NCBI GenBank assembly: GCA_019116805.1
Contig: DXAV01000083.1
Span: 1-64,000, forward strand
Source of the DNA: Candidatus Bacteroides merdavium
Lineage (GTDB): Bacteria; Bacteroidota; Bacteroidia; Bacteroidales; Bacteroidaceae
Length of the DNA: 64,000 nucleotides
Direction of reading: 5' to 3'
In this document: positions 1-63,879 of the stretch, one piece after another
Numbering within the stretch: the stretch's first letter is position 1
Layout of the letters: each line of letters begins with the position of its first letter
Notes under the pieces: generated by a model
Database searches by the model: none
Seen by the model: the letters and a program-made list of their open reading frames with translations, nothing else
What the model was told of the DNA's origin: nothing
Program-made: the position numbers and the translations under genes

Positions 1-58
1 TCGTTTCATTGCTTTCTTTGTTTTTTAATTGTTTACATTTAGATTGGTTCATTGTCCG

Positions 59-146
59 GTCTGCCACCGAGGCTGCATCGGTCCGACACCAAGGCGGCTT
101 CTGTCCGACACCAAGGCCGCCTCGGTCCGACACCGATGTTACCCCT
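59..146. repeat. About four tandem imperfect 22-nt repeats (GTCCGACACCAAGGCSGCYTCK)
   Basis: Units at 59, 81, 103, 125, each starting GTCyGmCACC; units 2 and 3 nearly identical; period 22 exact. Confidence 0.85.
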
Positions 147-378
147 CGTCAGAAGTGCCTGTAGAGGGGATATAGGCCGTTACAAAAGTCTTTACTTCGT
201 GCGACACGATGACGCGCCCCGACCCTTGGCACTGGGGGCAGACAGCGCCGTCCGTTTCGCCTTTGCCGCCGCACACCCGGCAGGCCACGATGTGGGGCGG
301 GATGGTGCGCTCGTGCGTGGGTTCCGGCTCCTGGGGCGCCGGGCGGCGTTGTTTCTTGAATTTGTCGAATAGGTTGTT
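139..378 (-). CDS. Small DnaJ-type zinc-finger protein (two CxxCxGxG motifs)
   Basis: CRVCGGKG...CPQCQGSG in the ORF; start assigned to MNNLFDKFKK. Confidence 0.65.
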   Translation of the reverse strand, partial: NNLFDKFKKQRRPAPQEPEPTHERTIPPHIVACRVCGGKGETDGAVCPQCQGSGRVIVSHEVKTFVTAYIPSTGTSDEG

Positions 379-400
379 CATTGCTTTTTTTAGTTTACGA

Positions 401-460
401 GTTGACAAGGTTTCAGGCTACAAGGCCCTTGTTGCCTTGTTAACTTGTCCCCTTGTCAAC
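401..460. repeat. Inverted repeat GTTGACAAGG...CCTTGTCAAC between two zinc-finger ORFs, with internal CCTTGT repeats
   Basis: Perfect 10-bp arms at 401-410 and 451-460. Confidence 0.75.
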
Positions 461-463
461 TGA

Positions 464-703
464 TTAATCATTTTCTCCTTCGTCGGCCACCCATTGGATG
501 GTGACGATGGCTTTCAGTTTCTTCTTTCCCCGGCACACGGGGCAGGGCTGCTTGACGCGCTCCAGACTTTCATCTGTGCCCCAGAACCAGCCGTTGCCGT
601 GGCAGTAGTTGCAGGGGATGCCCCCGAACTCCTCGCGCTCCACGGGCGTCTCGGCGGGGAACAGCGGCGGGGTGACCAGCAGCATGGGTTGTTTCTTGCT
701 CAT
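464..703 (-). CDS. Small DnaJ-type zinc-finger protein
   Basis: CNYCHGNG...CPVCRGKKK motifs; co-oriented with operon. Confidence 0.65.
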   Translation of the reverse strand: MSKKQPMLLVTPPLFPAETPVEREEFGGIPCNYCHGNGWFWGTDESLERVKQPCPVCRGKKKLKAIVTIQWVADEGEND

Positions 704-924
704 AGCTTTCTTTCCTTGTATCGCCAGCCGTTCAGCCGGTAGGTCTCGCGCCGGGCCTCCTCACGGGTGAGGAACTCCGCCACCTTGTCGCCGGTGGTGA
801 ACAGCCGGGGCGAAGGGCCGCCCTCCTCGCGGTAGGTGGTGAACAGGTAGACCGCCCAGCACCTGCCGTGGGGTTTGTAGCGATATTCGCGGCTGACGGC
901 CTCCAGGTCAGGCTTCCACTGCAT
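700..924 (-). CDS. Hypothetical phage early protein (74 aa)
   Basis: Overlapping ATGA-type junctions with neighbours, co-directional with operon. Confidence 0.6.
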   Translation of the reverse strand: MQWKPDLEAVSREYRYKPHGRCWAVYLFTTYREEGGPSPRLFTTGDKVAEFLTREEARRETYRLNGWRYKERKL

Positions 925-1432
925 CGGCTTCCTTCTTGGGTTCCACGAAGAAGGTTTCTTCCTGCACCACTTGCACGCCTATCTTGGGAAACATTTCGGC
1001 CACTTCGGGCAGGGCGCGGTCGGCCAGCAGGCGGTCTTTGGCCAGTTCCTCGGAGGTGCGGATGTAGGCGGGCAGCAGTTCCTTCACCAGGTTGGTCACC
1101 GCCGCCCAGGTGAAGCCGCGCAGGTTCTTCAGCTTGGGCGTGCCGGTGCGGAAGCCGAAGGTGCCGTGGGCGCTCTCCAGGCTCTTGCGCTTGGCGAAGA
1201 GTTCGTCTTTGTTCTCCATCGCGTAGGATTGCAGGATGTCGAAGTTCTTTTCCTTCACTTCGTTCAACTCTGCCAACTGTCCGGCATACTTCTCGCGGAT
1301 GCGGGTCATTTCGAGGTCCATCTTGGACGTCAGGTGTTGCACCCGTGCGTCGGCGCCGGCATAGTCGGCAAACGCCTGTTCGGCTTGTTCGCGGCTGATG
1401 CCGCTGAGGATGGTTTTCTTGGTTCTTGCCAT
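908..1432 (-). CDS. Mu Gam-like host-nuclease inhibitor family protein
   Basis: 174 aa, coiled N-terminal region and 'GTFGFRTGTPKLKNLRGFTW' typical of Gam-like proteins. Confidence 0.8.
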   Translation of the reverse strand: MARTKKTILSGISREQAEQAFADYAGADARVQHLTSKMDLEMTRIREKYAGQLAELNEVKEKNFDILQSYAMENKDELFAKRKSLESAHGTFGFRTGTPKLKNLRGFTWAAVTNLVKELLPAYIRTSEELAKDRLLADRALPEVAEMFPKIGVQVVQEETFFVEPKKEADAVEA

Positions 1433-1483
1433 GATGTTTACTTGTTAATGGTTAATGATTAGTGGTTAGTGGAATGCTTTTGC

Positions 1484-1533
1484 CAAGTGCGTTATTTGGC
1501 CGCATCAAGTGCGTTATTTGACCGTGCCAAGTA
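1484..1533. repeat. Tandem 22-nt repeat (CAAGTGCGTTATTTGRCCGyry), two full copies plus a partial third
   Basis: CAAGTGCGTTATTTG at 1484 and 1506; CAAGT again at 1528. Confidence 0.8.
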
Positions 1534-1571
1534 GCTACCTTGTCAAAAAGCCCCATTTCCAATTCTCAATT

Positions 1572-1727
1572 TTACTCGTCCATGTCGTTCCAGCAAAGCA
1601 GCTGGCGTTCGTTCTCCAGTTCAACGATAAGTTGCTGGAGATATTCGTCATATCTTTCCTCGCTCAATCCGCTGGTCAGTTCACGGATGCGATCCATTTC
1701 TTGTTCTACAAATTGTCTGGGTGTCAT
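1572..1727 (-). CDS. Small phage protein (51 aa), not in the supplied ORF track
   Basis: Read manually: MTPRQFVEQEMDRIRELTSGLSEERYDEYLQQLIVELENERQLLCWNDMDE*. Confidence 0.55.
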   Translation of the reverse strand: MTPRQFVEQEMDRIRELTSGLSEERYDEYLQQLIVELENERQLLCWNDMDE

Positions 1728-1733
1728 ACGCGC

Positions 1734-2162
1734 TTAGTTTAAGAGTTTGCTATTATTGTTCTTGTCTGTCTCCTTACGAAGGATGATGCGGAGCTTGATG
1801 CTGAGGGCTTCCAGTTCGTCTACTGTCAGCCTTTGAAACTCCTTGCCCGCCAGCCGGGGATGCAGGCAGTAAGCATCCACCCGTTTCCAGTCCGTGGTGT
1901 CGATGCCCAGCTTCTGCATCAGGTGCAGGGCAGTGGAACGTCGGCGGCGCAGTTCGGCGCGGTAGATGTCGCGGGCACGGCGGTTGGCATCCTGCCGCTG
2001 TAGTTCGTCGCACAGGGCGTCATACTCCCGGTCGGTCATTTCGCGCAGCGACTCGGTTCGGCCGCCGGTGAACTGGCTGACCAGTTGCGCCTTCAGCTCC
2101 TCGCGGTCGCCGGTCGTGGGCAGCCGGTTCAGCAGCACGTAGAATCTTGCGTAATTTCTCAT
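1734..2162 (-). CDS. Phage early protein, possibly GemA/gp16-like
   Basis: 142 aa; 'RVDAYCLHPRLAGKEFQRLTVDELEALSIKLRIILRK' resembles the C-terminus of Mu GemA/gp16-like proteins. Confidence 0.55.
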   Translation of the reverse strand: MRNYARFYVLLNRLPTTGDREELKAQLVSQFTGGRTESLREMTDREYDALCDELQRQDANRRARDIYRAELRRRRSTALHLMQKLGIDTTDWKRVDAYCLHPRLAGKEFQRLTVDELEALSIKLRIILRKETDKNNNSKLLN

Positions 2163-2175
2163 TGTCTTTCCTCCT

Positions 2176-2400
2176 TTATTTGGTTATGTTCACTTTGCAG
2201 CCGGGGTGCCATTGCCGGATGCGGTTGGCAAACAGCACGTCCCTGGTCTCCATCACGACGCAGCCCTTGGTCCTGGCGCGTCGGAAGCGGATGTCGGCCT
2301 GTATGTTCCTCTCCAGCCATTCTTCCATCACTTCGGCGGCCTCGTGGCCGGGCAGCAGGATTTGGTAGAGCTCGGTGCCGGTGTAGGTGGGGGTATTCAT
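2176..2400 (-). CDS. Hypothetical phage early protein (74 aa)
   Basis: MNTPTYTGTELYQ...; ATG overlaps the stop of the upstream ATPase gene. Confidence 0.6.
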   Translation of the reverse strand: MNTPTYTGTELYQILLPGHEAAEVMEEWLERNIQADIRFRRARTKGCVVMETRDVLFANRIRQWHPGCKVNITK

Positions 2401-3035
2401 GATTTGTCCTCCTCGATTTGTCCGGCCCAATACGCGGCGGCTCCTTCTTCCCAGATGGTGAAATGGTCGCCGGGCTTGGTGATGAAACGCCCTTTGCATA
2501 CGGCGCGGAAGCCTTGGATGAATATCTTCACGTCGGCATCGTAGGCCACCTTCTTGGCGGCGCGGCCTTCCGGCCTCATGCCCTCGCAATGGCTGACGAA
2601 TACCAGCAACTTGTTGGCGTGCTTCTCCTTCAATGCCTTGTAGGAGGCGTAGGTCAGTCCGGTGTATTGGAAGCTGTCGATGATGACCACGTCCGGACTG
2701 CGCCGTTTGGCCAGGCGTTGGCTCAGTTCGTCCATCGGTTCACGGTCCAGTATCTTGAAGCGGCGGTTCACTTCATCCATGCGTTCACGCTTCAACGTGT
2801 TCTGCAACGAAAGACCGGTGCTCTCCTCCAGGCTGTCGTAGGCCACCGTGCACCACCGGCACAAGTATTTGGCCAGTTTCATCACAAAGGCGCTTTTCCC
2901 GTTGCCACTTTCTCCCCAGATAATCCACGTCCCGGTGCGTGACGGGTGGCCGAAGGCGGCTTCCCACTCTCCCTCAAAGGGGAAGCTGGGGATGTGCATC
3001 GCCTGCACTTCGGTCGGTGAATAGGCTCTTTTCAT
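2397..3035 (-). CDS. P-loop (RecA/AAA-like) ATPase of the phage early operon
   Basis: Walker A GESGNGKS, Walker B-like VVIIDS. Confidence 0.75.
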   Translation of the reverse strand: MKRAYSPTEVQAMHIPSFPFEGEWEAAFGHPSRTGTWIIWGESGNGKSAFVMKLAKYLCRWCTVAYDSLEESTGLSLQNTLKRERMDEVNRRFKILDREPMDELSQRLAKRRSPDVVIIDSFQYTGLTYASYKALKEKHANKLLVFVSHCEGMRPEGRAAKKVAYDADVKIFIQGFRAVCKGRFITKPGDHFTIWEEGAAAYWAGQIEEDKS

Positions 3036-3038
3036 GGC

Positions 3039-3917
3039 TCAGGCTCCTTTCTTCAACTTTTCGATTTCAGTATAAACCCGTCGTAGGCTACCGCCGGTGC
3101 GGTTCACCACCTTCACGATGTCGGTGTCGGCGGGCGCGTTCAGCTTGGCCACCATGGCCGCCTGTGCTTTCAGGAAGGTATCCCGCTCCTTGGCGTCGTC
3201 CGGGGTGACCTTGCTGTATTTGTCGCCATAGCGGGAAAGCATCTCGGTGTAGCCCACCTTCTTGCACTCGATGGAGCGGTTGATTTTCTCCTTCAGACCG
3301 TCGGCTCCCATCATGTACCAGGCGCAGCAGCGTTCGGTGGCGTTCCACAGGGCTTTCAGTTCCAGGAAGGCTTCATATTGCAAGTCTCCGGCTTCGTCCA
3401 AGATGATAAGCGGGTGGTCCAGCGTCCGCAAGTAGAACACCAGGTCGTCGTACACGTCCACATAGCGGCCGTTCGTGCTGATGCCGAATTCCTTGGCGAT
3501 GAAGCGGATCAGGCGTTGCTTGGTTTTCACCTGCGAGCAGTCCACATAGATGGCGTTGCGGTGCGCCTTGACGTAGGCCCGTGCCGTGAAGGTCTTGCCG
3601 ATGTTGGCCATGTCGCAGAGGATGGCGCTCATGCCTCCTTGCTGGCAGGTGGCCAGTTGCTCGCTGATGAAGATGTAGGTAGGCGTCTCGGCGGCGTGCC
3701 ATTCCATTTCCTCCGAAAGCGACACGTTCAGCCGGCGGGCGATGCAAATCCAGTTCGTGTCGCTCACCTGGCGGTCGATGTTTCCTTTCTTCAGGGCGTT
3801 GTAGACGCTAGCGGATATGCCGAGGGCGGCGGCGTGCTTGTTGTCGCTCGGATAGTTGTCACGGTTGGCGCGGATGGCCTCCATGATGCGCTGTTTGATT
3901 TCGTTCGTTAGTTCCAT
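3039..3917 (-). CDS. MuB-like ATP-binding target-selection protein
   Basis: 292 aa; N-terminal HTH-like region, Walker-type core, 'LIILDEAGDL' Walker B; immediately follows the MuA-like gene. Confidence 0.85.
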   Translation of the reverse strand: MELTNEIKQRIMEAIRANRDNYPSDNKHAAALGISASVYNALKKGNIDRQVSDTNWICIARRLNVSLSEEMEWHAAETPTYIFISEQLATCQQGGMSAILCDMANIGKTFTARAYVKAHRNAIYVDCSQVKTKQRLIRFIAKEFGISTNGRYVDVYDDLVFYLRTLDHPLIILDEAGDLQYEAFLELKALWNATERCCAWYMMGADGLKEKINRSIECKKVGYTEMLSRYGDKYSKVTPDDAKERDTFLKAQAAMVAKLNAPADTDIVKVVNRTGGSLRRVYTEIEKLKKGA

Positions 3918-3949
3918 TCTATTGCTGTTTTAACGTTGTTCTAATAGGA

Positions 3950-6058
3950 TTATATCGACTTGATGGCTGCTCCCTTGTAGCCGCTCACGTCATAGTTCAG
4001 GAAGTCGGCGGTGTCCTCTGCCTTGGTTTGCACAGGCTGCGCCGTGGCTTCCTCTATCTGCCGGGCGGCTTCTTGCCTCATCACGGCCACCGGGGCGACG
4101 GCCTCGCGCTTCATCATGGCGTCGAACTTGCTGATCAGCTTATTCTGTTCGGTCATGATGCGGGTATCTTCGTCCGTCCGTTCGGCCAGGGCCTCGTTGA
4201 AGGTACCGACATCCTTCAGACGGTCTATCAGGTTCCCGTTCTGGTAGATGTAGACATCACCCGTTTCCCCGTTTTCGTCCGGCAGGTAGTAGGCGTCCAC
4301 CTTCAGGTTGTTGGGCTCCAGCTTGTCCAGCACGTCCGGGTCGCTCAGCCAATAGTCCTTGTAGGCCACGCGGCAGTAGCTGTTCCGGCGGATGCTGGTG
4401 CTGACGTGCTCGCCGATGAAGCGGTAGAGCATGGCTTTGTCCAGCGGTTGCAGGTTGGGGTTCATGTTGGCCTCCAGCACTTGCCAGCGGGTCATGCCGG
4501 GATATTTCTTCTGGTTGGGGTGCAGGCTGTTGTTGAACTCCCGCACGTCCGCCATGTCCTCGGCAATCAGTTGCTCCCAGGTGTAATACTCGCGGTCCTC
4601 GTAGGTGTCGTTCAGTTCGTCGCTGACCTTCCTGCTTTCGGTGCGGTATTTTTCGTTCTTGGCGTAGAAGCGGCCGATGCCCAAGTGGTTGCGGTGCTCC
4701 ACGCTCTTCTTCTTGGCACCGTTGAAGTGCTCGGAGCGTTTCTCCTGCGAGTTCAACGGGGCGCAGAAGCGGACAAAGGGGAATATCACGCCGGCCTTCA
4801 GGAAACTGTCTTTCCATTGGGTCATCAGGTGGTTTTCCACTTCCACCTGTGCCGGACAGCACCATCCTTTGTGCTCGATGAGCCGGAACATGCTGCGGAA
4901 CATGTCCACCACCAAGTCCACGTTCTTGTTGCGGTTGTAGGCGAAGCCCACCACGCACTGGCTGGCCACGTCGTAGGCGTAGTATGCCTTGGGGCGTGCC
5001 TTGGTGTCCTTCAGCTTGCGCGGCAGGTCGCGGTCGTCGAACGATATTTTGCTGAACGAGAATTCGGGCGAATGGCGGTGGACGTGCGGCCGCTGCTCGT
5101 GCATGAAGGTGCTCCAACTCATCAGGGCGTTGTTCACCAGCACCTTGTTCTTGGGCTGGTTCAGGTAGGCGTTGATGGTGGAGGGGCTCAATTCCATGGG
5201 CTGCCCGTTCTTGTCCCGGAAATCGGCAGGGTCGAACACTTCACCAGTCTTGGGGTCGAACACTGTCTGCCGTCCGTTCACAAAGTCGGTGTACATGGTC
5301 CACACATCCTTGTTCCAAGGCTTGTTGGGCATCGTAGCCAAGGCCAGCAGCAGGCGTTCGATGTTCACGTTGACCTTGCGCGTGTTCTGGTTGCAAAACT
5401 TCCCGCTGATCAGGGAGGCGTAACTTTTTTCCTGGAACTCCTTCACGCGCTTCTTGAAGCGGGCGGGCGAAGTGGGCAGCGTGTGCCCGAATTCCTTTTG
5501 GTAGAAGCTGATGGCGCCGCTCATTTCTTCCCACTTGACGCGGCTGCCCTGCATCACGGCGCGCTTCATCTTGGTGTCGTTCATCAGCCGCACCACCGCC
5601 TGCAAGGCCGATGCGTTCAGCGTGTATTCCTGCTGCTGCTCCGGCGTGAGGGGTTTCCCGGAAGGCAGCCTGTAGAGGGAATACCAGCTTTGTGCCGCCT
5701 GGTCAATCTCCCAGTGCGTGCCAAACCAGTTCCGTAAGGCTTCTGTATCCATATCTCCGTATTTTTCTTCCACTCTTTTCTTGTATTTCTCCGGCAGGCT
5801 TTCCACGGAAACCAAGGCGGACACGCCACGTCCTACACCTTTGCGGACGACCAGGATCTTGCCGCGGTAGACCAACAGCTTGTAGCAACTCTCACTCATG
5901 ATGGGTGCCAAGACTTCGAGGCTCCACATGGACGGGTGCATCCCGTTTATCTCGCGGGACTGGCTGTAGTCCAGGTTCCCATTGGCCAGTTGCACCGGGC
6001 GGTCGTCGCGCGTCAGGTCGTTCTTTGAAATACATAATATCTTCCCGTAGTATTCCAT
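3950..6058 (-). CDS. MuA-like DDE transposase
   Basis: 702 aa; rve-type core (YAYDVASQCVVGFAYNRNKN, later 'VEVENHLM'), Mu-transposase-like C-terminal part; operon context. Confidence 0.9.
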   Translation of the reverse strand: MEYYGKILCISKNDLTRDDRPVQLANGNLDYSQSREINGMHPSMWSLEVLAPIMSESCYKLLVYRGKILVVRKGVGRGVSALVSVESLPEKYKKRVEEKYGDMDTEALRNWFGTHWEIDQAAQSWYSLYRLPSGKPLTPEQQQEYTLNASALQAVVRLMNDTKMKRAVMQGSRVKWEEMSGAISFYQKEFGHTLPTSPARFKKRVKEFQEKSYASLISGKFCNQNTRKVNVNIERLLLALATMPNKPWNKDVWTMYTDFVNGRQTVFDPKTGEVFDPADFRDKNGQPMELSPSTINAYLNQPKNKVLVNNALMSWSTFMHEQRPHVHRHSPEFSFSKISFDDRDLPRKLKDTKARPKAYYAYDVASQCVVGFAYNRNKNVDLVVDMFRSMFRLIEHKGWCCPAQVEVENHLMTQWKDSFLKAGVIFPFVRFCAPLNSQEKRSEHFNGAKKKSVEHRNHLGIGRFYAKNEKYRTESRKVSDELNDTYEDREYYTWEQLIAEDMADVREFNNSLHPNQKKYPGMTRWQVLEANMNPNLQPLDKAMLYRFIGEHVSTSIRRNSYCRVAYKDYWLSDPDVLDKLEPNNLKVDAYYLPDENGETGDVYIYQNGNLIDRLKDVGTFNEALAERTDEDTRIMTEQNKLISKFDAMMKREAVAPVAVMRQEAARQIEEATAQPVQTKAEDTADFLNYDVSGYKGAAIKSI

Positions 6059-6069
6059 GGCGAACCTCC

Positions 6070-6432
6070 TTATTTCAATGCGCCTGCCCAGTTCTGAATG
6101 TCATTTATGACGCTGGTCATCACGCCGTCCCAATGCTTCACACATTCGCCCTCAAAGAAGGCGTCGCAACTGCCTGTGTTCTTGTTGAACTCCAAAATCG
6201 CGCCGTTCGGCAGGTACTGGTACATGAAGTTGTCGCTGTCATGGAAGCACTCCAGGGCCGGGCCTATATTCACAATGAACCCGCCGCGCTGCAAGGCCAA
6301 CCGCCGGATCTTCTTGGCGAGGTCCGTGTCGCTTTGGAAGGCCAATGCCTTGAATACCATCCGTTCCGTGACGTTGAAAGCCTTCATCAGGAACTCGCGG
6401 TTCTCTCTGGTTACAGAAATCTTCTTTTCCAT
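6070..6432 (-). CDS. Hypothetical phage early protein
   Basis: MEKKISVTRENREFLMKAFNVTERMVFKALAF...; start moved inside ORF 6070..6594. Confidence 0.65.
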   Translation of the reverse strand: MEKKISVTRENREFLMKAFNVTERMVFKALAFQSDTDLAKKIRRLALQRGGFIVNIGPALECFHDSDNFMYQYLPNGAILEFNKNTGSCDAFFEGECVKHWDGVMTSVINDIQNWAGALK

Positions 6433-6544
6433 ACGCTTATATCTGTTTTTGCTGTTAATACTCTGTCTGAAAATCCTTCCGCTATCCTCCCGGACCACGG
6501 AAGTTTTGCTACCTTTGTAGCATGTTTCACTAAAATTACCGTTT

Positions 6545-6913
6545 ATGAACATAGATTTTTTAATGCTGAAGGCGCAGTTCAACGCGCTTCGCAATTTTTA
6601 CATGGGCCATCTTGGCAGCAACCCCGACAAGGACATCGCTTGGAGGGATAAATATCTCTTGTGGGAGTTTGAACGCGATCTTCTGTCATCCTGTGATAAT
6701 ACTCAGCTTTCTTCTCCTGAGAACGAAATACTGGAGCGCCGCCGTTTCCAGCTTCAGGTGCTGATGGATGTCGCATACCTTCAGGGACATCTTGAACGAT
6801 TTGGCGTAGCGCGTCTGATACAACCCGGATCACGCGATATTGCTGACGCTGTGTTTCACGATTCTGACGGGAGCGAGGAAACGATGCTTCCGCTGATTGA
6901 CCGATACTTCTGA
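6545..6913 (+). CDS. Moron-like ORF, hypothetical 122-aa protein, opposite to the early operon
   Basis: ORF with natural-looking composition and a -7 element TACCTTTG at 6510-6517 just upstream. Confidence 0.6.
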   Translation: MNIDFLMLKAQFNALRNFYMGHLGSNPDKDIAWRDKYLLWEFERDLLSSCDNTQLSSPENEILERRRFQLQVLMDVAYLQGHLERFGVARLIQPGSRDIADAVFHDSDGSEETMLPLIDRYF

Positions 6914-7094
6914 CAAAGATTTCTTCCTTTCCCAAGACAGCGATGCCACGAACCAGTACATTGCTGAACATCGCTGTTTCGGGAAGGTTGTGCAGTTCTG
7001 CTTTTATCTTATCCAGCAGTTCATGCTTGTTATAGCATTTACCGGTTGTGAACTCTATTGATTCCAGTCTCTGACATACCACTTTCAGTTCCAT
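6579..7094 (-). CDS. Hypothetical phage protein; only the first ~60 codons look native, remainder is antisense to 6545..6913
   Basis: MELKVVCQRLESIEFTTGKCYNKHELLDKIKAELHNL...; overlap with plus ORF. Confidence 0.4.
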   Translation of the reverse strand: MELKVVCQRLESIEFTTGKCYNKHELLDKIKAELHNLPETAMFSNVLVRGIAVLGKEEIFVRSIGQSAEASFPRSRQNRETQRQQYRVIRVVSDALRQIVQDVPEGMRHPSAPEAGNGGAPVFRSQEKKAEYYHRMTEDRVQTPTRDIYPSKRCPCRGCCQDGPCKNCEAR

Positions 7095-7105
7095 ACACTT
7101 GTCTT

Positions 7106-7315
7106 TTATTTCAGTTCCACAATAATCGGTTCCTCAAAATCCGTCAGCAGACGCGCCTTGAACCAGTCCATGGCGTCCTCGTCCTCGCACACCGCCACGA
7201 ACGTGACGTTGTCCACTTGGTAGACGAACGTGTCATCTTCATATTTGAACTCGCGAAGGAAGTCATCCACCTTCGACCACTCGTTAAATCCTACTGATAC
7301 TCTGATTGCTTTCAT
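7106..7315 (-). CDS. Hypothetical phage early protein (69 aa)
   Basis: MKAIRVSVGFNEWSKVDDFLREFKYEDDT... Confidence 0.6.
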   Translation of the reverse strand: MKAIRVSVGFNEWSKVDDFLREFKYEDDTFVYQVDNVTFVAVCEDEDAMDWFKARLLTDFEEPIIVELK

Positions 7316-7462
7316 ATTGCTGTTGTTTTTAATGTTACTGTAGTAGGGCGCGGGGAATCGAACCCCGCCGCAAACAACCAGTGCCCCGCGTGTCTTTCCA
7401 CGCCGTCCGACCGTCTCTTTTCACGCCTTCCGGTCTGTCACGCTTCTGGGTTATCCTACAAT

Positions 7463-7855
7463 CTACTTACCCTGTTCGTCAATCATCGAAAGAATACATT
7501 TCCGGTCTTCGTCCCAAAGCGGAAGCCCCAACTCGATGGTCCGCTTTACCACATCCATTTCCCCGACCAGCTTCACCGCTTGGTTCCGGAAGTCCGTATC
7601 GTCATGGGCATGTGCCTTTCCTATCAGGAAGTCGGCCAATTCGTTGATGACGTTCTCTTGTCGATCGCACTTCATCTTATAGTTCAACACCCGCACATGA
7701 ACCTCGCGGATAATCCGGCTTTCTCCGTGCTTTTTATATTCCTTGCAGAATTCGTCTTTGTTCATCGACGTATTCATATAAACTGCGTGGATGTAATCAA
7801 ACTCCTCTGTTGTCGGGGTGATACCGGTTCTCTCTTCAAATTCCTTCTGTGTCAT
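7463..7855 (-). CDS. Hypothetical phage early protein (130 aa), first gene of the early operon
   Basis: Directly downstream of the early promoter region. Confidence 0.65.
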   Translation of the reverse strand: MTQKEFEERTGITPTTEEFDYIHAVYMNTSMNKDEFCKEYKKHGESRIIREVHVRVLNYKMKCDRQENVINELADFLIGKAHAHDDTDFRNQAVKLVGEMDVVKRTIELGLPLWDEDRKCILSMIDEQGK

Positions 7856-7945
7856 ATCTTCGCTATTTTTAAGTTTTACATCTAATATTCGCTAATCTCG
7901 CCGCTTTTCACTATATTTGGCGGCTGTTCCGTACTGAACACGGTG

Positions 7946-8008
7946 CAAATATAAACATTTTGAGTAATACAATCCAAACATTCTGAGAAATAATTTCTCA
8001 TTTTGTTT
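7946..8008 (-). promoter_or_regulatory. Early promoter (-7 TATATTTG, minus strand) overlapped by three operator-like copies of AAACAWTYTGAGWAAT (two direct, one inverted)
   Basis: AAACATTTTGAGTAAT 7953-7968; AAACATTCTGAGAAAT 7976-7991; inverted AAACAAAATGAGAAAT 7993-8008; 'caaatata' 7946-7953. Confidence 0.65.
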
Positions 8009-8025
8009 TTATTTAATGTTCGCTT

Positions 8026-8679
8026 ATGAATAAAAAGGAAATGCTACAAGCCTTAATTGACCATTACGATAATGGTAATAAGTCACAGTTTGCCAAAAGA
8101 TTAGGTATTTCTGCGCAAGGTATAAGTACCTGGCTCAGCCGAGGAACATTGGATATTGAGTTGATTTACTCAAAATGCGAAAGAATTAATTCAGAATGGC
8201 TTCTGACTGGTGAGGGCAATATGCTAAAAGAGGGAAAAGCACAGAGGCAACAAGAACCGGCGTGCCCTACACCAAATAATAGTATAGAAGGTATCCCGCT
8301 ATTGCCTCTCAGTGCAATGGCGGGTGCATTTACCGGCGAGGCTTCCGTGATGGAATACGAGTGCGAACGCTATGTTATTCCGGCATTCAAAGGCGCGGAC
8401 TTCCTTATTCAAGTCAAAGGGGATTCGATGCAGCCCACCTATTATTCAGGCGACCTTGTGGCCTGCCAGCGTGTTCCGCTCAGCGATCTGTTTTTCCAAT
8501 GGAACAAAACCTATGTGCTCGACACCGTGCAAGGTCCTCTGATCAAACGTGTGCGCCGGGGTTCGGATGACGACCACCTTCTTATCGTTTCAGACAACGC
8601 GGACTATGAACCCTTCGAGCTTTCGAGGGATCAGTTCTATGGCGTGGCGCTGGTACGCGGATTGGTGCGCCTCGAATAA
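8026..8679 (+). CDS. Phage repressor: N-terminal HTH plus C-terminal S24/LexA-like peptidase domain
   Basis: HTH 'SQFAKRLGISAQGISTWL'; S24 'VKGDSMQPTYYSGDLV'. Confidence 0.9.
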   Translation: MNKKEMLQALIDHYDNGNKSQFAKRLGISAQGISTWLSRGTLDIELIYSKCERINSEWLLTGEGNMLKEGKAQRQQEPACPTPNNSIEGIPLLPLSAMAGAFTGEASVMEYECERYVIPAFKGADFLIQVKGDSMQPTYYSGDLVACQRVPLSDLFFQWNKTYVLDTVQGPLIKRVRRGSDDDHLLIVSDNADYEPFELSRDQFYGVALVRGLVRLE

Positions 8680-8924
8680 ACACGTGCAATACCATGCGGC
8701 ATACCCCATCCGGGGCGAAATCACGGACACACACACTCTTTTCGCCCCGCTTAAGTATGGTTTTGTGTATAAATCGCTGTAAATAAGGGAGTAATAAGCA
8801 CATCCGACGCCATTATAACCTATTTATATAGTGGCTTTTTCTACCCGCTTAAAAGCGCATTTGCGCCAAAAACACGGCTTCCCCATCCGCTTTCTACCTA
8901 TTTTCAAACGTTCAAAACAAGGAA

Positions 8925-8996
8925 TTTGTAACCCTTTTGTAACCCTTTTAACATATAGAAATGTAGCCCTTATACGTAACCCTTTTTTGTAACCGG
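8925..8996. repeat. Cluster of GTAACCC-type repeats near the presumed prophage left end
   Basis: GTAACCC at 8928, 8939, 8976; variants GTAGCCC 8963, GTAACCG 8989. Confidence 0.6.
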
Positions 8997-9004
8997 ATGG
9001 GCAT

Positions 9005-9052
9005 AAAAACGGCCGTCGCAATGCTCCGGGAAGTAAGCACCACGACGGCCTA
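9005..9052 (-). terminator. Intrinsic terminator (minus strand) of the 70-aa ORF
   Basis: GGCCGTCG...CGACGGCC stem followed, on the minus strand, by GTTTTTA. Confidence 0.65.
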
Positions 9053-9072
9053 AACAGCAATATAACAGCTAC

Positions 9073-9285
9073 TTAACGGTTGCCTCTGATAAGATGGGAC
9101 ACCACAATCCGGGCACGCTTCGTCATCTTGACGCTTCCATCCTCCATTTTGGCGTGCAGGAGCGTGCTTTTCTTGATGCCGATGCGGTCCTCGTCCAGCG
9201 TTTCAAACACCGCCGAGAGGCTTCCGAAATAGAAGTCCTTCTTCTCGAAAATCAGGTGTACATGAACAACTTTTATAGGTCCCAT
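9073..9285 (-). CDS. Small hypothetical protein (70 aa), probably mobile-element associated
   Basis: MGPIKVVHVHLIFEKKDFYFGSLSAVFETLDEDRIGIKKSTLLHA...; own terminator. Confidence 0.6.
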   Translation of the reverse strand: MGPIKVVHVHLIFEKKDFYFGSLSAVFETLDEDRIGIKKSTLLHAKMEDGSVKMTKRARIVVSHLIRGNR

Positions 9286-9383
9286 AATTGAAGTTTTTAC
9301 GCTGCAAATATACTAAATAACTCTTATATGGAAGTATTTGACACAAAATAAATTCATTTCCTGCCCAAAATTCAGCCCACAAC

Positions 9384-14043: not shown

Positions 14044-14116
14044 CCGTTTTCAATATCCACACGTCATCCTTTCATTCTCCAAACCAAACAGATTGCCCAC
14101 ATTGAACAGACAGACC

Positions 14117-14220
14117 GTTTAAGCAGGGAAAACAGATCGTTTAAGCTGGGAAAACAAACTGTTTAAGCTGGATAAACGGATTGTTTAAGCTGGGCAAACA
14201 GATGCTTTCCCCAGCTTAAA
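14117..14220. repeat. Four tandem 22-nt repeats GTTTAAGCTGGGAAAACAGATY plus a terminal inverted half-copy
   Basis: GTTTAAGC at 14117, 14139, 14161, 14183; inverted CCCCAGCTTAAA at 14209-14220. Confidence 0.9.
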
Positions 14221-56185: not shown

Positions 56186-57013
56186 TCATCGTCTTCGCCG
56201 AATGCGTTTCCACCACAAATAATATCCGGTCAGCGGAAGCGCGGCACCCAACAGAGCGGCCAGGAACCAGAGTATGCGTGTAATCATCCCGCCGAAACTG
56301 CCTACATGCACGCCATACACCCAACGCTTGTCTACCCCGAAGAATTCATAAAACCATTCGCGATACCAGCCGAAAGACCACGTAAGCCCGGTCAAGGCCA
56401 TAATCAACAGCAATAGCAAGGCATACATGCCGCCCGCCACATGCAGGCTGTACCAGAAACGCCGCCATCCTTTGCGCACCGTAATCTTCAGGCTGCCGGT
56501 CAACGCCTTCTTCGTCCGGGGCCACCAAATGATGATTCCTGACAGCAACACGATGACAAACAACAACGTACTGACACCCACAATCATCTTTCCCAAAAAT
56601 ATACCGCCGCCATCCGGCCTGCTACCCAACAGCCAGCGGTGCAGACCGAACATGGTGCGGAAGAACGGCAAGCGCTCATACTTGCCCAGCACCTCGCCCG
56701 TATAGGGATTGACAAACACAGCCGCACGCTTGGGCTTGGAAAGATTTACCTGATAAGAACGTTCCGGGTCGGGATATGCAGTCACGCCTTTCACTTTTAC
56801 TCCATCGGGAAGCGTGGCTGCGACCTTGGCCGCAGCTTCTTCCTGTGTAAGCATGGGGCCCGAAAGCCGCTCCACCCGATAAAGGTCGGGACGAGCCCAC
56901 ATCGTAATCTCCTGTTCGAACACCAGCATGGCTCCCGAAAAGCATATCAGCGCGATGAGGACGCCGAAAGGCAGTGACAGCCAAAGGTGCAGTTTACGGA
57001 AAATACTTTTCAT
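56186..57013 (-). CDS. PepSY-domain inner-membrane protein (XusC-like)
   Basis: 'RKLHLWLSLPFGVLIALICFSGAMLVFEQEI', 'GLHRWLLG'; adjacent to DUF4374 and TonB receptor genes. Confidence 0.85.
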   Translation of the reverse strand: MKSIFRKLHLWLSLPFGVLIALICFSGAMLVFEQEITMWARPDLYRVERLSGPMLTQEEAAAKVAATLPDGVKVKGVTAYPDPERSYQVNLSKPKRAAVFVNPYTGEVLGKYERLPFFRTMFGLHRWLLGSRPDGGGIFLGKMIVGVSTLLFVIVLLSGIIIWWPRTKKALTGSLKITVRKGWRRFWYSLHVAGGMYALLLLLIMALTGLTWSFGWYREWFYEFFGVDKRWVYGVHVGSFGGMITRILWFLAALLGAALPLTGYYLWWKRIRRRR

Positions 57014-57116: not shown

Positions 57117-58589
<1,473 letters not shown>

Positions 58590-58625: not shown

Positions 58626-61046
58626 TCATCCGCCGAAATACACACGCACCTTGCCATAGAACGCCCGCCCCGCCTTCTGTAGGCTGAAATTGTCGTAGAG
58701 CTTGGCATCGGTCAGGTTACGGCACTCCAAGGACAGGTTGTAGCGTCCGTTCTTCAGCGAGTATCCCAACGTGAGGTTGTGCGACAACTGTTCGGGCACG
58801 CGGCTCTTGGTCGACGCATCGCCGAAGGCTTCCCAGTAGAGGGGGAAGTCGTGTTGGTAGAAGCCATCATACGTCAGCGTCAATACGTTGCCCTTGCCCC
58901 ACAGGCCGTGCCACGTGAGGGTGGCATCGAAGTTGGCATACATATACGGCTGATTGGGCATACGCTGTCCGTAGGTGAGGCTTTCCTGCTGAGTGCCTCC
59001 CGCCACGTAGCGTTCGTTGTCACGTATGTTAGTATTGTTGAATGTACCTCCTACGTTAAACCATCTGCCGTAGCTATAGCGGGCGGAGACGTTGAAGCCC
59101 TTGGTCTTGACGCGGCCGTGATTCTCGTAGTAACCGAAACTCATGCCACCCACACGGTCCAGTCCGCGCTGGATGTAATCGCGCGTGTCACGGTAGATGA
59201 AGCTGCCTTCCAGGTAGAGGCCGTGCTTACCAAACTGGCGGTTGTAGCTGAGGTTGACGTTGATGTTATCACTCTTCTCCGGACGGAGGTCGGCTTTACC
59301 CGCTTCGAGGTCCTCGTCGCCGAAAAGCTCGTCGGTCGTGGGCAGGCGGTAGGCCTTCTCGTAGGAGACCTTGGCTTGCAGTCCGTCGAGGATGAAGTAC
59401 GTGCCCGCCGCACCATAGCCCAAAGAGCTGACCCGCTGAGTCATGCTGACGTAGTCACCAATGCCGTCCGAGCTTTGCGACACGGGACCCCGGTTATACT
59501 GATTATAATATTTGCCGAAGGCGGAGAGGTTCCACTTCTCGGTAGGCATCAGGCGGTAGGACAGGCCGGTGATATTCTTACGGGTCACCTTGGGGATGCT
59601 GAAGTCCGACAGTTTGTTGCTGCCTTCCACGTAACTGCGGCTGGTGCGCTTGAAGGTGCTCAGCACGTGATTCAGCGTCAGCGTATGCGCCCGGCTGATG
59701 CGGTAATTGGCGGTGAAGGTAGCGTTCCAGTTCAGATTCTTCGACTCGCTGTTCTGATACGACTGCTCGCCGGGCGTACCGGTGTATTTGCGATCGCCCA
59801 GCCAGTTGTATTTGTAGGTAGCGGTGTCGATGTTCTGAGTGATATTGTGGTTGTAGTTGGCGGTGGCCACCACGTCCAACCCGCGGGTGAAGAGGTTACG
59901 CTTGGTGTACTCCAACGAAGGCGTGAAGGAATGCCCTTTGCGGTGCTTCTGCCCGAAGACGATATACTGGTACACGCCCGTCTGTATCTCCTTGTAATAA
60001 TTGGAGTAATTGAAGCCCAAGGCCAGGCGGTCGGCCCACGACTTGTCCACCACACCTATCTTGCCGATGACAGCCTCGTTGTGGAAGGTGTCGTTGAATC
60101 GCTTAACGTGATAGATTTTCTTGGTGTCAGTGCTTTCGCTCCCGTCCTCGCCGAACTCGGTGATATAGTTGTCAATGTAATAATCGTTGTCCGAATAATT
60201 CTGAAAGGCGTTCACCTCGTACATGAAGCCGTTCTTCAGCGTCTGCCCGAAGTTGACGTACGACTTGTGCGTGTTGAACGAGCCGTAGCTGTAGGACGCG
60301 TCCACGTGCCAGCGGCGGCGTTGTTTGTTGGTGACGATGTTCACCACACCGCCCAGCGCGTCCGTGCCGAAGCCAACGGGCACCACGCCCTTATACACCT
60401 CGATACGTTCGGCAAAGTTCACGGGCAGGTTGTTGAGGTCGAGCGCCTTGCCCGCGCCTTCCTGCGGCACACCGTCGATGAACACCTTCACGTGCTTGCC
60501 GCTGAATCCGTCCAGCATCAGCTGCATGTCCGAACCTACTCCCCCACTCTCACGCAGCTTCATGCCCGGCGCCTTGGCCAGCACATCGCTCAAGCTCTTG
60601 GCCGTGTTCTGCATCTCGGTGGCATCTACGGCCACGGCGTTGAACGCGCTGCGCTTCACGCGGCTCACTCCGCTGGACACGACCACGACTTCCTCCAGCT
60701 GCTGAATGTCCGGCCGGATGGTCAGGTTCAGCACCAGCCGCTCCTCGTCTCCCAAGGTGACCGGCTTCTCCAGGGTCTGATAGCCGACGGCCGACACGAC
60801 CAGGGTGTATTCGCCTGCCGGAGCCTTGATGCGATATTGTCCTTTCTCATCGGTGGCACCACCGAAAGAAGTCCCCTTCAGATATACTGTGGCGAAGTCC
60901 ACCGTCTCCTTCTCCGTCGATGTCACCCTTCCCGTCACAACGGCGCGGTCGCCCCGGTGGTGGTGATGATGGGCACCACGATGCCCTTGGGCATACAGGC
61001 TTCCGATGCCCGTCACGAGCGATAATATAAATGCGATTGTTTTCAT
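58626..61046 (-). CDS. TonB-dependent receptor (XusA-like)
   Basis: Carboxypeptidase-like N-terminal domain, plug 'VVVVSSGVSRVKRSAFNAVAVD', 'GTDALGGVVNIVT'. Confidence 0.88.
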   Translation of the reverse strand: MKTIAFILSLVTGIGSLYAQGHRGAHHHHHRGDRAVVTGRVTSTEKETVDFATVYLKGTSFGGATDEKGQYRIKAPAGEYTLVVSAVGYQTLEKPVTLGDEERLVLNLTIRPDIQQLEEVVVVSSGVSRVKRSAFNAVAVDATEMQNTAKSLSDVLAKAPGMKLRESGGVGSDMQLMLDGFSGKHVKVFIDGVPQEGAGKALDLNNLPVNFAERIEVYKGVVPVGFGTDALGGVVNIVTNKQRRRWHVDASYSYGSFNTHKSYVNFGQTLKNGFMYEVNAFQNYSDNDYYIDNYITEFGEDGSESTDTKKIYHVKRFNDTFHNEAVIGKIGVVDKSWADRLALGFNYSNYYKEIQTGVYQYIVFGQKHRKGHSFTPSLEYTKRNLFTRGLDVVATANYNHNITQNIDTATYKYNWLGDRKYTGTPGEQSYQNSESKNLNWNATFTANYRISRAHTLTLNHVLSTFKRTSRSYVEGSNKLSDFSIPKVTRKNITGLSYRLMPTEKWNLSAFGKYYNQYNRGPVSQSSDGIGDYVSMTQRVSSLGYGAAGTYFILDGLQAKVSYEKAYRLPTTDELFGDEDLEAGKADLRPEKSDNINVNLSYNRQFGKHGLYLEGSFIYRDTRDYIQRGLDRVGGMSFGYYENHGRVKTKGFNVSARYSYGRWFNVGGTFNNTNIRDNERYVAGGTQQESLTYGQRMPNQPYMYANFDATLTWHGLWGKGNVLTLTYDGFYQHDFPLYWEAFGDASTKSRVPEQLSHNLTLGYSLKNGRYNLSLECRNLTDAKLYDNFSLQKAGRAFYGKVRVYFGG

Positions 61047-61168
61047 CCTCTATGTGCTTATTTATTCCGCCGCAAAGGTCGGGATAAAAGCACGCCCCCA
61101 CAATCGCCTGTTATGGGTATTTTAGAAGCCCCTCCCGCCACTCTTCCTGAGAAAACATGCCCGTCAAT

Positions 61169-61183
61169 CCCTATATTTAGGTA
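61169..61183. promoter_or_regulatory. Operator-like CCCTATATTTAGGTA upstream of the TonB receptor gene
   Basis: Matches CCCTA-N4-TAGGTA seen twice at 62.4 kb. Confidence 0.4.
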
Positions 61184-61272
61184 AAACTCTACAAGACAAC
61201 TCACCCCCAAGCCTGGCACATGACACCGTTTCCTCCGTATCATGGCAGCATCCATGTAGTAAGCCGATAGGG

Positions 61273-61355
61273 AATCATGTAGGATGATTCCTACAATCAT
61301 GTTACATGATTCCTACAATCATCATACATGATTCCTACAATCATCCTACATGATT
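61273..61355. repeat. Eight alternating AATCAT/ATGATT hexamers exactly 11 nt apart (22-nt repeat)
   Basis: Hexamers at 61273, 61284, 61295, 61306, 61317, 61328, 61339, 61350. Confidence 0.95.
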
Positions 61356-61431
61356 CCTTGCCAAGTCCGTACTTCGATACGGTTCAGTCCGAGACAAGGC
61401 ATCGGCATCTGACGGATGTTCCATATAAAGG

Positions 61432-62253
61432 TTATTTAGATAGGATTTTATATCCGAGCAGCGAGCTGAATTTGTAGCACAGCCAAGGGATACGCCCCAA
61501 TATCTGTCCGAAGAAAAATCCCCAGCGCGGACGGAAGAACTTCATGTAGTTGGCTTGGTCCAGCAGGTGCAGGGCGGGTTCCCATTGCTCCACCAAGTGC
61601 CCGTTGCTCAGCCCGGAGCGGATTTGTGCCTCGTGCTTACGCAGCGAATCCGGTTTGACGCCGTGCCGGCTCATCATGGTCCCGCAGACATCGAACCAGA
61701 TTTCTCCTCCGCCGAAGCGGCTTGCCACGTGGTGCAGGAAGCTCCTCACCTGCTTCTCGTAGAAATACATCAGCACGCCTTCCACAATGAAGATAAACGC
61801 CCCGTCGGGATGCTTGCAGCGCAGGCCGTCCATCCATTCGGTCTCCAGCAAGGAAGCCGCGATATAAGGGTTGCCCGGCTGTTCGGGTATCAGTTCGCGG
61901 CGCAGCGCGATGACTTCCGGAAGGTCCATGTCATAGAAGACCGCTTTCCCGTTTCCGATGCGCTGGTAGCGGGTGTCCAGTCCGCAGCCTACGTTTACGA
62001 CTACCGGCCGAGGATGCGTGTCGATGAACCGCCGCACGGCACGGTCGAAATACCAGCCGCGCACCACGCAGCCCACTTCGCTCAGCCTGGCCCCGTCGAA
62101 TTGGGAATAATCATATTCCAGACTGTCTGCCAACCGTTCCGCAGCCTTATCATTCAGAATGGGATGGGCACGACGGCTCTCTTTCGCCTGCATGTATAGC
62201 GGAATGAGCAGTGTTTCCGCCACAATGCTCTTAAATTCGTGTTTCTGTTTCAT
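61432..62253 (-). CDS. Class I SAM-dependent methyltransferase (LCMT/TcmP-like)
   Basis: 'VVNVGCGLDTRYQRIGNGKAVFYDMDLPEVIALRREL'. Confidence 0.87.
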   Translation of the reverse strand: MKQKHEFKSIVAETLLIPLYMQAKESRRAHPILNDKAAERLADSLEYDYSQFDGARLSEVGCVVRGWYFDRAVRRFIDTHPRPVVVNVGCGLDTRYQRIGNGKAVFYDMDLPEVIALRRELIPEQPGNPYIAASLLETEWMDGLRCKHPDGAFIFIVEGVLMYFYEKQVRSFLHHVASRFGGGEIWFDVCGTMMSRHGVKPDSLRKHEAQIRSGLSNGHLVEQWEPALHLLDQANYMKFFRPRWGFFFGQILGRIPWLCYKFSSLLGYKILSK

Positions 62254-62361
62254 TGTATATCGCAATTTAATAGTGAATGTTTCGATTGAGTGAGAGCAAG
62301 GCAATTTCATATTTGCTTTGCCGATTGTGAGAAAGATGCGCAATCATGTTTTTTAACATCA

Positions 62362-63879
<1,518 letters not shown>

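Follow-up and report, generated by a model that had tools for sequence, protein, structure and literature searches.

The window (the whole stretch of 64,000 nucleotides analysed here) contains an intergenic array of short, alternating inverted hexamers. The gap that holds it is flanked by two minus-strand genes, by the end of an LCM-type methyltransferase gene and by the start of an XusA-like TonB receptor gene. The features considered are the following:

56186..57013, minus strand: PepSY_TM membrane protein (XusC-like)
57117..58562, minus strand: DUF4374 lipoprotein (XusB-like)
58626..61046, minus strand: TonB-dependent receptor (XusA-like), its ATG 226 nt from the array
58650..63350, no strand assigned: recent recombination tract containing the array, 99.8% identical to G093, the representative of another species
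61273..61355, no strand assigned: core array AATCAT N5 ATGATT N5, four 22-nt units, eight hexamers at 11-nt pitch (direct reading, TRF)
61356..61382, no strand assigned: right flank with degenerate 11-nt-phased half-sites, CCAAGT N5 CTTCGA (sequence reading, flank comparison in relatives)
61432..62253, minus strand: SAM-dependent methyltransferase (LCM/TIGR00027-like), its stop codon 76 nt from the array
57-134, 1481-1532, 7389-7432, 14110-14202 and 61273-61355: 22/23-nt arrays in the window (TRF, score at least 40)

Eight alternating AATCAT/ATGATT hexamers at an exact 11-nt pitch had been described here in an earlier note, and re-reading the sequence bears this out, including the spacers then listed. 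The hexamers start at 61273, 61284, 61295, 61306, 61317, 61328, 61339 and 61350, and TRF recovers the array with a period of 22 and a score of 115. Six pattern matches were seen against 0.13 expected from shuffling. If any hexamer sequence is allowed, the window contains 5 chains of four alternating complementary hexamers, and 20 simulated windows contain 0. The array at 61273-61355 is no chance feature. It is single-copy in its own genome assembly, and its right-flank half-sites resemble the outer half-sites of relatives' arrays.

The window was also said to hold about eight 22/23-nt arrays; at the score used, TRF finds the five listed above. Their units do differ from each other, as had been claimed, but they are not all unrelated singletons, as arrays fall into dispersed families. 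The 22-nt array at 14110-14202 (ACAGACCGTTTAAGCTGGGAAA), which lies between convergent genes, is one of a family with the unit TTTAAGCTGGG, found at about 25 other loci of the genome. This unit pair has 70 matches (about 25 loci) in the window's own genome (G000), 3 in G093 and 0 in five other genomes; judged by this distribution, the TTTAAGCTGGG arrays are a lineage-specific expansion in G000. The genome-wide period distribution, which the earlier note had proposed as a check, has the excess it called for: of the 155 intergenic tandem repeats in 1.31 Mb of this genome, 83 show a period of 20-24 nt or twice that, compared with 1 of 10 after shuffling of the intergenic DNA. The tandem arrays of this genome avoid divergent gaps. 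Three of those in the window (57-134, 1481-1532 and 7389-7432) occupy gaps of a Mu-like prophage remnant at window positions 1-9300, which encodes Mu Gam (PF07352, 908-1432), an AAA_22 protein (3039-3917) and an S24 peptidase (8317-8679). Unrelated 22-nt arrays lie upstream of CI-type repressor genes in three genomes (L236, L238 and L267; an HTH and an S24 domain were identified for the repressor at L236), and CI-type repressors may be a second protein family with such arrays.

The AATCAT array is one of many. Of 160 genomes of the genus, 28 contain the pattern ATGATT-N5-AATCAT-N5-ATGATT, some of them at many loci, and the reversed control gave 0. Among 85,462 species, the four-hexamer form was found in 86 stretches, whose titles throughout name Bacteroides, Caecibacteroides or Parabacteroides; beyond Bacteroides it was seen in the near relative Caecibacteroides and in two Parabacteroides, and in none else of these species. 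Viral contigs (IMG/VR) gave no match to the pattern, and the idea of a virus-borne element was rejected. All AATCAT arrays are intergenic. They have mostly 6 or 8 hexamers (range 4 to 12), with AATCAT first and ATGATT last. Hexamers are constant and spacers variable across loci; the conservation of hexamers and spacing in related genomes, a further check proposed for the array, was thus found. The flanks carry phased degenerate half-sites, and a sharp boundary, clear terminal repeats and target duplications appear to be lacking. Arrays can be composite: at two loci (L114 and L067) the AATCAT core is followed on the outside by another periodic unit, CGCCGGTTCATCCGGGATGAAA-like and also with a period of 22 nt.

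The most frequent neighbour of an AATCAT array is a gene for a protein of about 133 amino acids, HU_rel/HU-HIG, with the array upstream of its start. In relatives, the linked protein scores 79-89 bits against TIGR01201, above the curated cut-off of 68.6, and is thus a member of this family; it matches PF18291 with E values of 1e-14 to 1e-15. Its predicted structure is an HU/IHF fold (AF2 pLDDT 90.7), for which Foldseek returns HU, IHF and B. vulgatus BVU_2165 (4fmr). In the 13 Bacteroides genomes examined, there are 8 to 39 strong HU_rel matches per genome. TAnnTTTG is the consensus of the Bacteroides -7 box, and 17 of 19 HU_rel cis arrays start 5-30 nt after such a box, compared to 3 of 87 arrays at other genes. 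When HU_rel genes in general were taken, chosen irrespective of arrays, 44 of 89 had a 20-25-nt array upstream, against 9 of 175 other genes (OR 18, p 1e-16) and none of 861 shuffles. About half of the HU_rel upstream regions are without an array, which we counted against a model based on HU_rel.

The units at HU_rel paralogs differ (CATCAT-N5-ATGATG, CTCGT-GGGG-AACGAG, GACACTT and others), and the period goes with the HU_rel clade, being 21, 22 or 24 nt; the 21-nt period belongs to a clade of about 210 amino acids and the 24-nt period to another clade. Unit similarity correlates with HU_rel protein identity (r 0.59, permutation maximum 0.18). As a leader control, the 50-nt stretch preceding the ATG tracks protein identity only once the proteins are more than 80% identical. 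This control, together with the matching of cis and trans arrays described below, weakens linkage alone as the cause of the correlation.

Dispersed arrays agree in their spacers with the HU_rel array of the same genome: arrays at unrelated loci match in 4.23 of 5 spacer bases within genomes and in 2.74 of 5 between genomes. Several genomes share an orthologous array before ilvC, yet in each the spacers go with that genome's HU_rel array. The ilvC array reads GTAAC-CCTAC-GTTAC where the HU_rel array is GTAAC-CCTAC-GTTAC, and TGGCA-TGGGG-TGGCA in the others. Where one genome has two HU_rel genes of the AATCAT class, its dispersed arrays form two sets that match them. The same was seen for a second class, where two HU_rel genes of one genome have slightly different units and one dispersed array each. 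Two relatives and the window's own genome also have the second-class array between dxr and rseP; a CTCGTGGGGGACAA-type array occupies this dxr-rseP gap in three species (L330 7833-7902 in the own genome, L297 and L314). Trans copies are not a feature of every family: one paralog (G136) has a 21-nt unit that was seen at its own gene and nowhere else. The matching of cis and trans arrays suggests, from these comparisons, that a trans-acting factor links the copies, most simply HU_rel; the pattern is otherwise hard to account for. It is possible that the concerted change of spacers results from copying between arrays and not from selection by a protein.

The window copy stands apart in one respect. 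Neither its own genome (85% complete) nor G093 (99% complete) has an AATCAT-clade HU_rel; the best matches are 45% and 43% identical, and lie outside the array-bearing clade, so that a cognate HU_rel in the same genome was sought and not found for this copy. Since both genomes are without such a gene, the window copy is probably an orphan in its species; by this comparison, it is most likely an orphan or imported site. Import would be in line with the surroundings of the array: over about 4.8 kb (58650-63350) G000 and G093 are 99.8% identical, with about 8% divergence on both sides, which we read as recent recombination between species. The tract spans xusA, the array, the methyltransferase gene and much of enolase. 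As this whole tract is a recent exchange, the identity of the array in G000 and G093 is uninformative, and we dropped any inference from it. Motifs similar to AATCGCCTGTTATGGGTATT and CAATACCTATTTTTAGG lie at window positions 61100-61125 and 62400-62480, near the TonB receptor start and before enolase, and similar ones occur between the orthologous genes at L031; they are possibly the site of another regulator.

Comparison across genomes gives the arrays a common family, invariant hexamers, linkage to HU_rel, clade-specific units and periods and cis-trans matching. Because of the HU_rel linkage, the clade-specific unit and period and the within-genome spacer match, we propose that the array is a helically phased, putative binding array for an HU_rel/HU-HIG protein (TIGR01201, PF18291), and we consider this reading probable. 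HU_rel dimers would recognise the inverted hexamers, whose dyads are spaced 11 bp apart, and a unit of 22 bp would let the dimers stack cooperatively along a single face of the helix. Lying behind the HU_rel promoter, the cis copy would repress the HU_rel gene, and the dispersed intergenic copies could be architectural (BIME-like) nucleation sites, or sinks tuning the level of HU_rel. The earlier note had left the choice between a phased protein-binding array and a slippage-grown foldable repeat. The former is favoured because hexamers stay fixed while spacers change, because of the HU-like promoter location, and because cis and dispersed spacers match; the latter is disfavoured because symmetric spacers are direct repeats and not complements.

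With regard to the dispersed copies, AATCAT arrays away from HU_rel genes lie closer to the preceding stop codon than to the next start (68 and 125 nt, p 4e-5), and the orientation of their flanking genes is the background mix (15 divergent, 5 convergent, 33 tandem). The role that was implied by describing the array as upstream of the receptor thus lacks positional support, dispersed arrays being nearer to the preceding gene's stop. Gene orientation and array position also led us to reject simple regulon operators as a general rule. By analogy, the placement of the dispersed copies (the window copy among them), after genes and not at promoters, resembles that of E. coli BIMEs.

The arrays could instead be mobile, a proliferating MITE- or REPIN-like repeat spread by an unknown enzyme, with HU_rel as partner gene in the way that RAYT accompanies REPINs. 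We regard this as unlikely, though it has points in its favour: loci differ among species, there is lineage-specific expansion and each array family is tied to one gene. Moreover, BrickBuilt, a MITE of P. gingivalis, includes 23-nt tandem repeats (PMC4596501); like the AATCAT arrays, these are intergenic, multicopy and variable in copy number. However, BrickBuilt also includes a leader, a tail and terminal inverted repeats, and a link to HU_rel is not described for it; the flanks of AATCAT arrays are phased degenerate half-sites. In addition, a RAYT-type Y1 transposase (Y1_Tnp) gene was found in 0 of 7 genomes with working positive controls, and we rejected REP/RAYT spread; by that criterion AATCAT arrays are not REP elements.

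More improbable is that the array is an operator by which the HU_rel protein directly controls the xus iron-acquisition operon. As an exception to the general placement, the orthologous xus-like operon of another species (TonB 78% and DUF4374 70% identical) also has an AATCAT array, located after its first gene and before its second, and TonB/SusC receptors recur among array neighbours. However, the background orientation and the stop-proximal position of dispersed arrays speak against such an operator, as does the lack of a matching HU_rel in the window species.

It is very unlikely that the array is a foldable element, a long hairpin of the transcript or of extruded DNA that serves in termination, attenuation or processing. 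In favour of this, shuffled versions of the window array fold much less well than the array itself (RNA z -7.5, DNA z -9.2) and dispersed arrays are often found after stop codons. However, in 84 arrays symmetric spacers are 71% identical as direct repeats, while their complementarity is 36% against 46% for random; 59 of these arrays are of the direct type and 4 hairpin-like, and no Rfam family was over threshold. A conserved hairpin, intrinsic terminator or structured RNA was thus rejected, as spacers are non-complementary across the family despite one good fold. Since symmetric spacers are direct repeats and not complements, the long hairpin that the window copy can form merely follows from its hexamers being inverted. 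Least credible of all is a functionless minisatellite grown by slippage, which would suit the range of copy numbers and the sharp differences of families between near species (the TTTAAGCTGGG counts in G000 and G093), but leaves unexplained why spacers diverge around unchanging hexamers, both at the orthologous ilvC locus and at non-orthologous ones, why the same hexamers stand at unrelated loci in 28 genomes, and the link to HU_rel; slippage accounts for copy number only.

The binding-array reading can be placed beside known systems. IHF sites follow the consensus WATCARNNNNTTR. The partner of the arrays has the HU/IHF fold and the core AATCA resembles WATCAR; however, the array was rejected as an IHF site on direct reading, its sixth base being T and the TTR part being absent. 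Plasmid iterons and parC/tubC have 11- or 22-bp phased repeats, cooperative binding and autoregulation. AATCAT arrays share the 11-/22-bp phasing but are chromosomal, dispersed and without an adjoining rep or par gene. The E. coli BIME/REP arrays are bound by IHF and gyrase. The AATCAT class is likewise extragenic, palindromic, of alternating orientation, dispersed and often located after genes, with one copy in the window's own genome. As in REPIN-RAYT populations, there is one repeat population per partner gene, whereas the 11-nt pitch, the 6-nt half-sites and an HU-like partner with its own cis array set AATCAT arrays apart from BIMEs and REPINs (PMC2817692, PMC8049555). In P. gingivalis, HU PG0121 shows some in vitro preference for a 77-bp inverted repeat before the K-antigen operon (PMC3969353), and here too an HU-family protein of Bacteroidota meets an upstream inverted repeat. 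PG0121 is, however, a canonical-type HU with a single inverted repeat, and paralog-specific tandem arrays are not described. This case and the BrickBuilt repeats are the closest published reports; a search of open-access papers gave no report of HU_rel arrays themselves. We would class the arrays with a known kind, repeat arrays served by HU/IHF-type proteins, and there is a real chance that they are more than that.

It is tempting to generalise that many Bacteroides HU_rel proteins each recognise their own palindromic, helically phased array, with autoregulatory cis copies and trans copies that co-evolve with the protein, as a lineage-specific, paralog-partitioned chromatin or regulatory system, and we put this at somewhat less than an even chance. 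The main gap in this general model is that no HU_rel gene is assigned to the array families that abound in the window species (TTTAAGCTGGG among them), none being located at one within the 1.31 Mb examined. The pairing of HU_rel and array is directly testable thanks to the cis/trans matching.

In summary, our comparisons suggest that gut bacteria have a large, undescribed set of HU-like proteins with matched binding arrays. HU itself is the textbook example of a nucleoid protein that binds non-specifically. If the proposal is true, sequence-specific recognition by HU-type proteins would be widely diversified in a dominant gut genus, a family annotated merely as "HU family DNA-binding protein" would gain a function, and there would be an explanation for why these genomes are so rich in 22-nt intergenic repeats. 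The pairs could thus provide natural, orthogonal protein-array combinations for studies of cooperative DNA binding.
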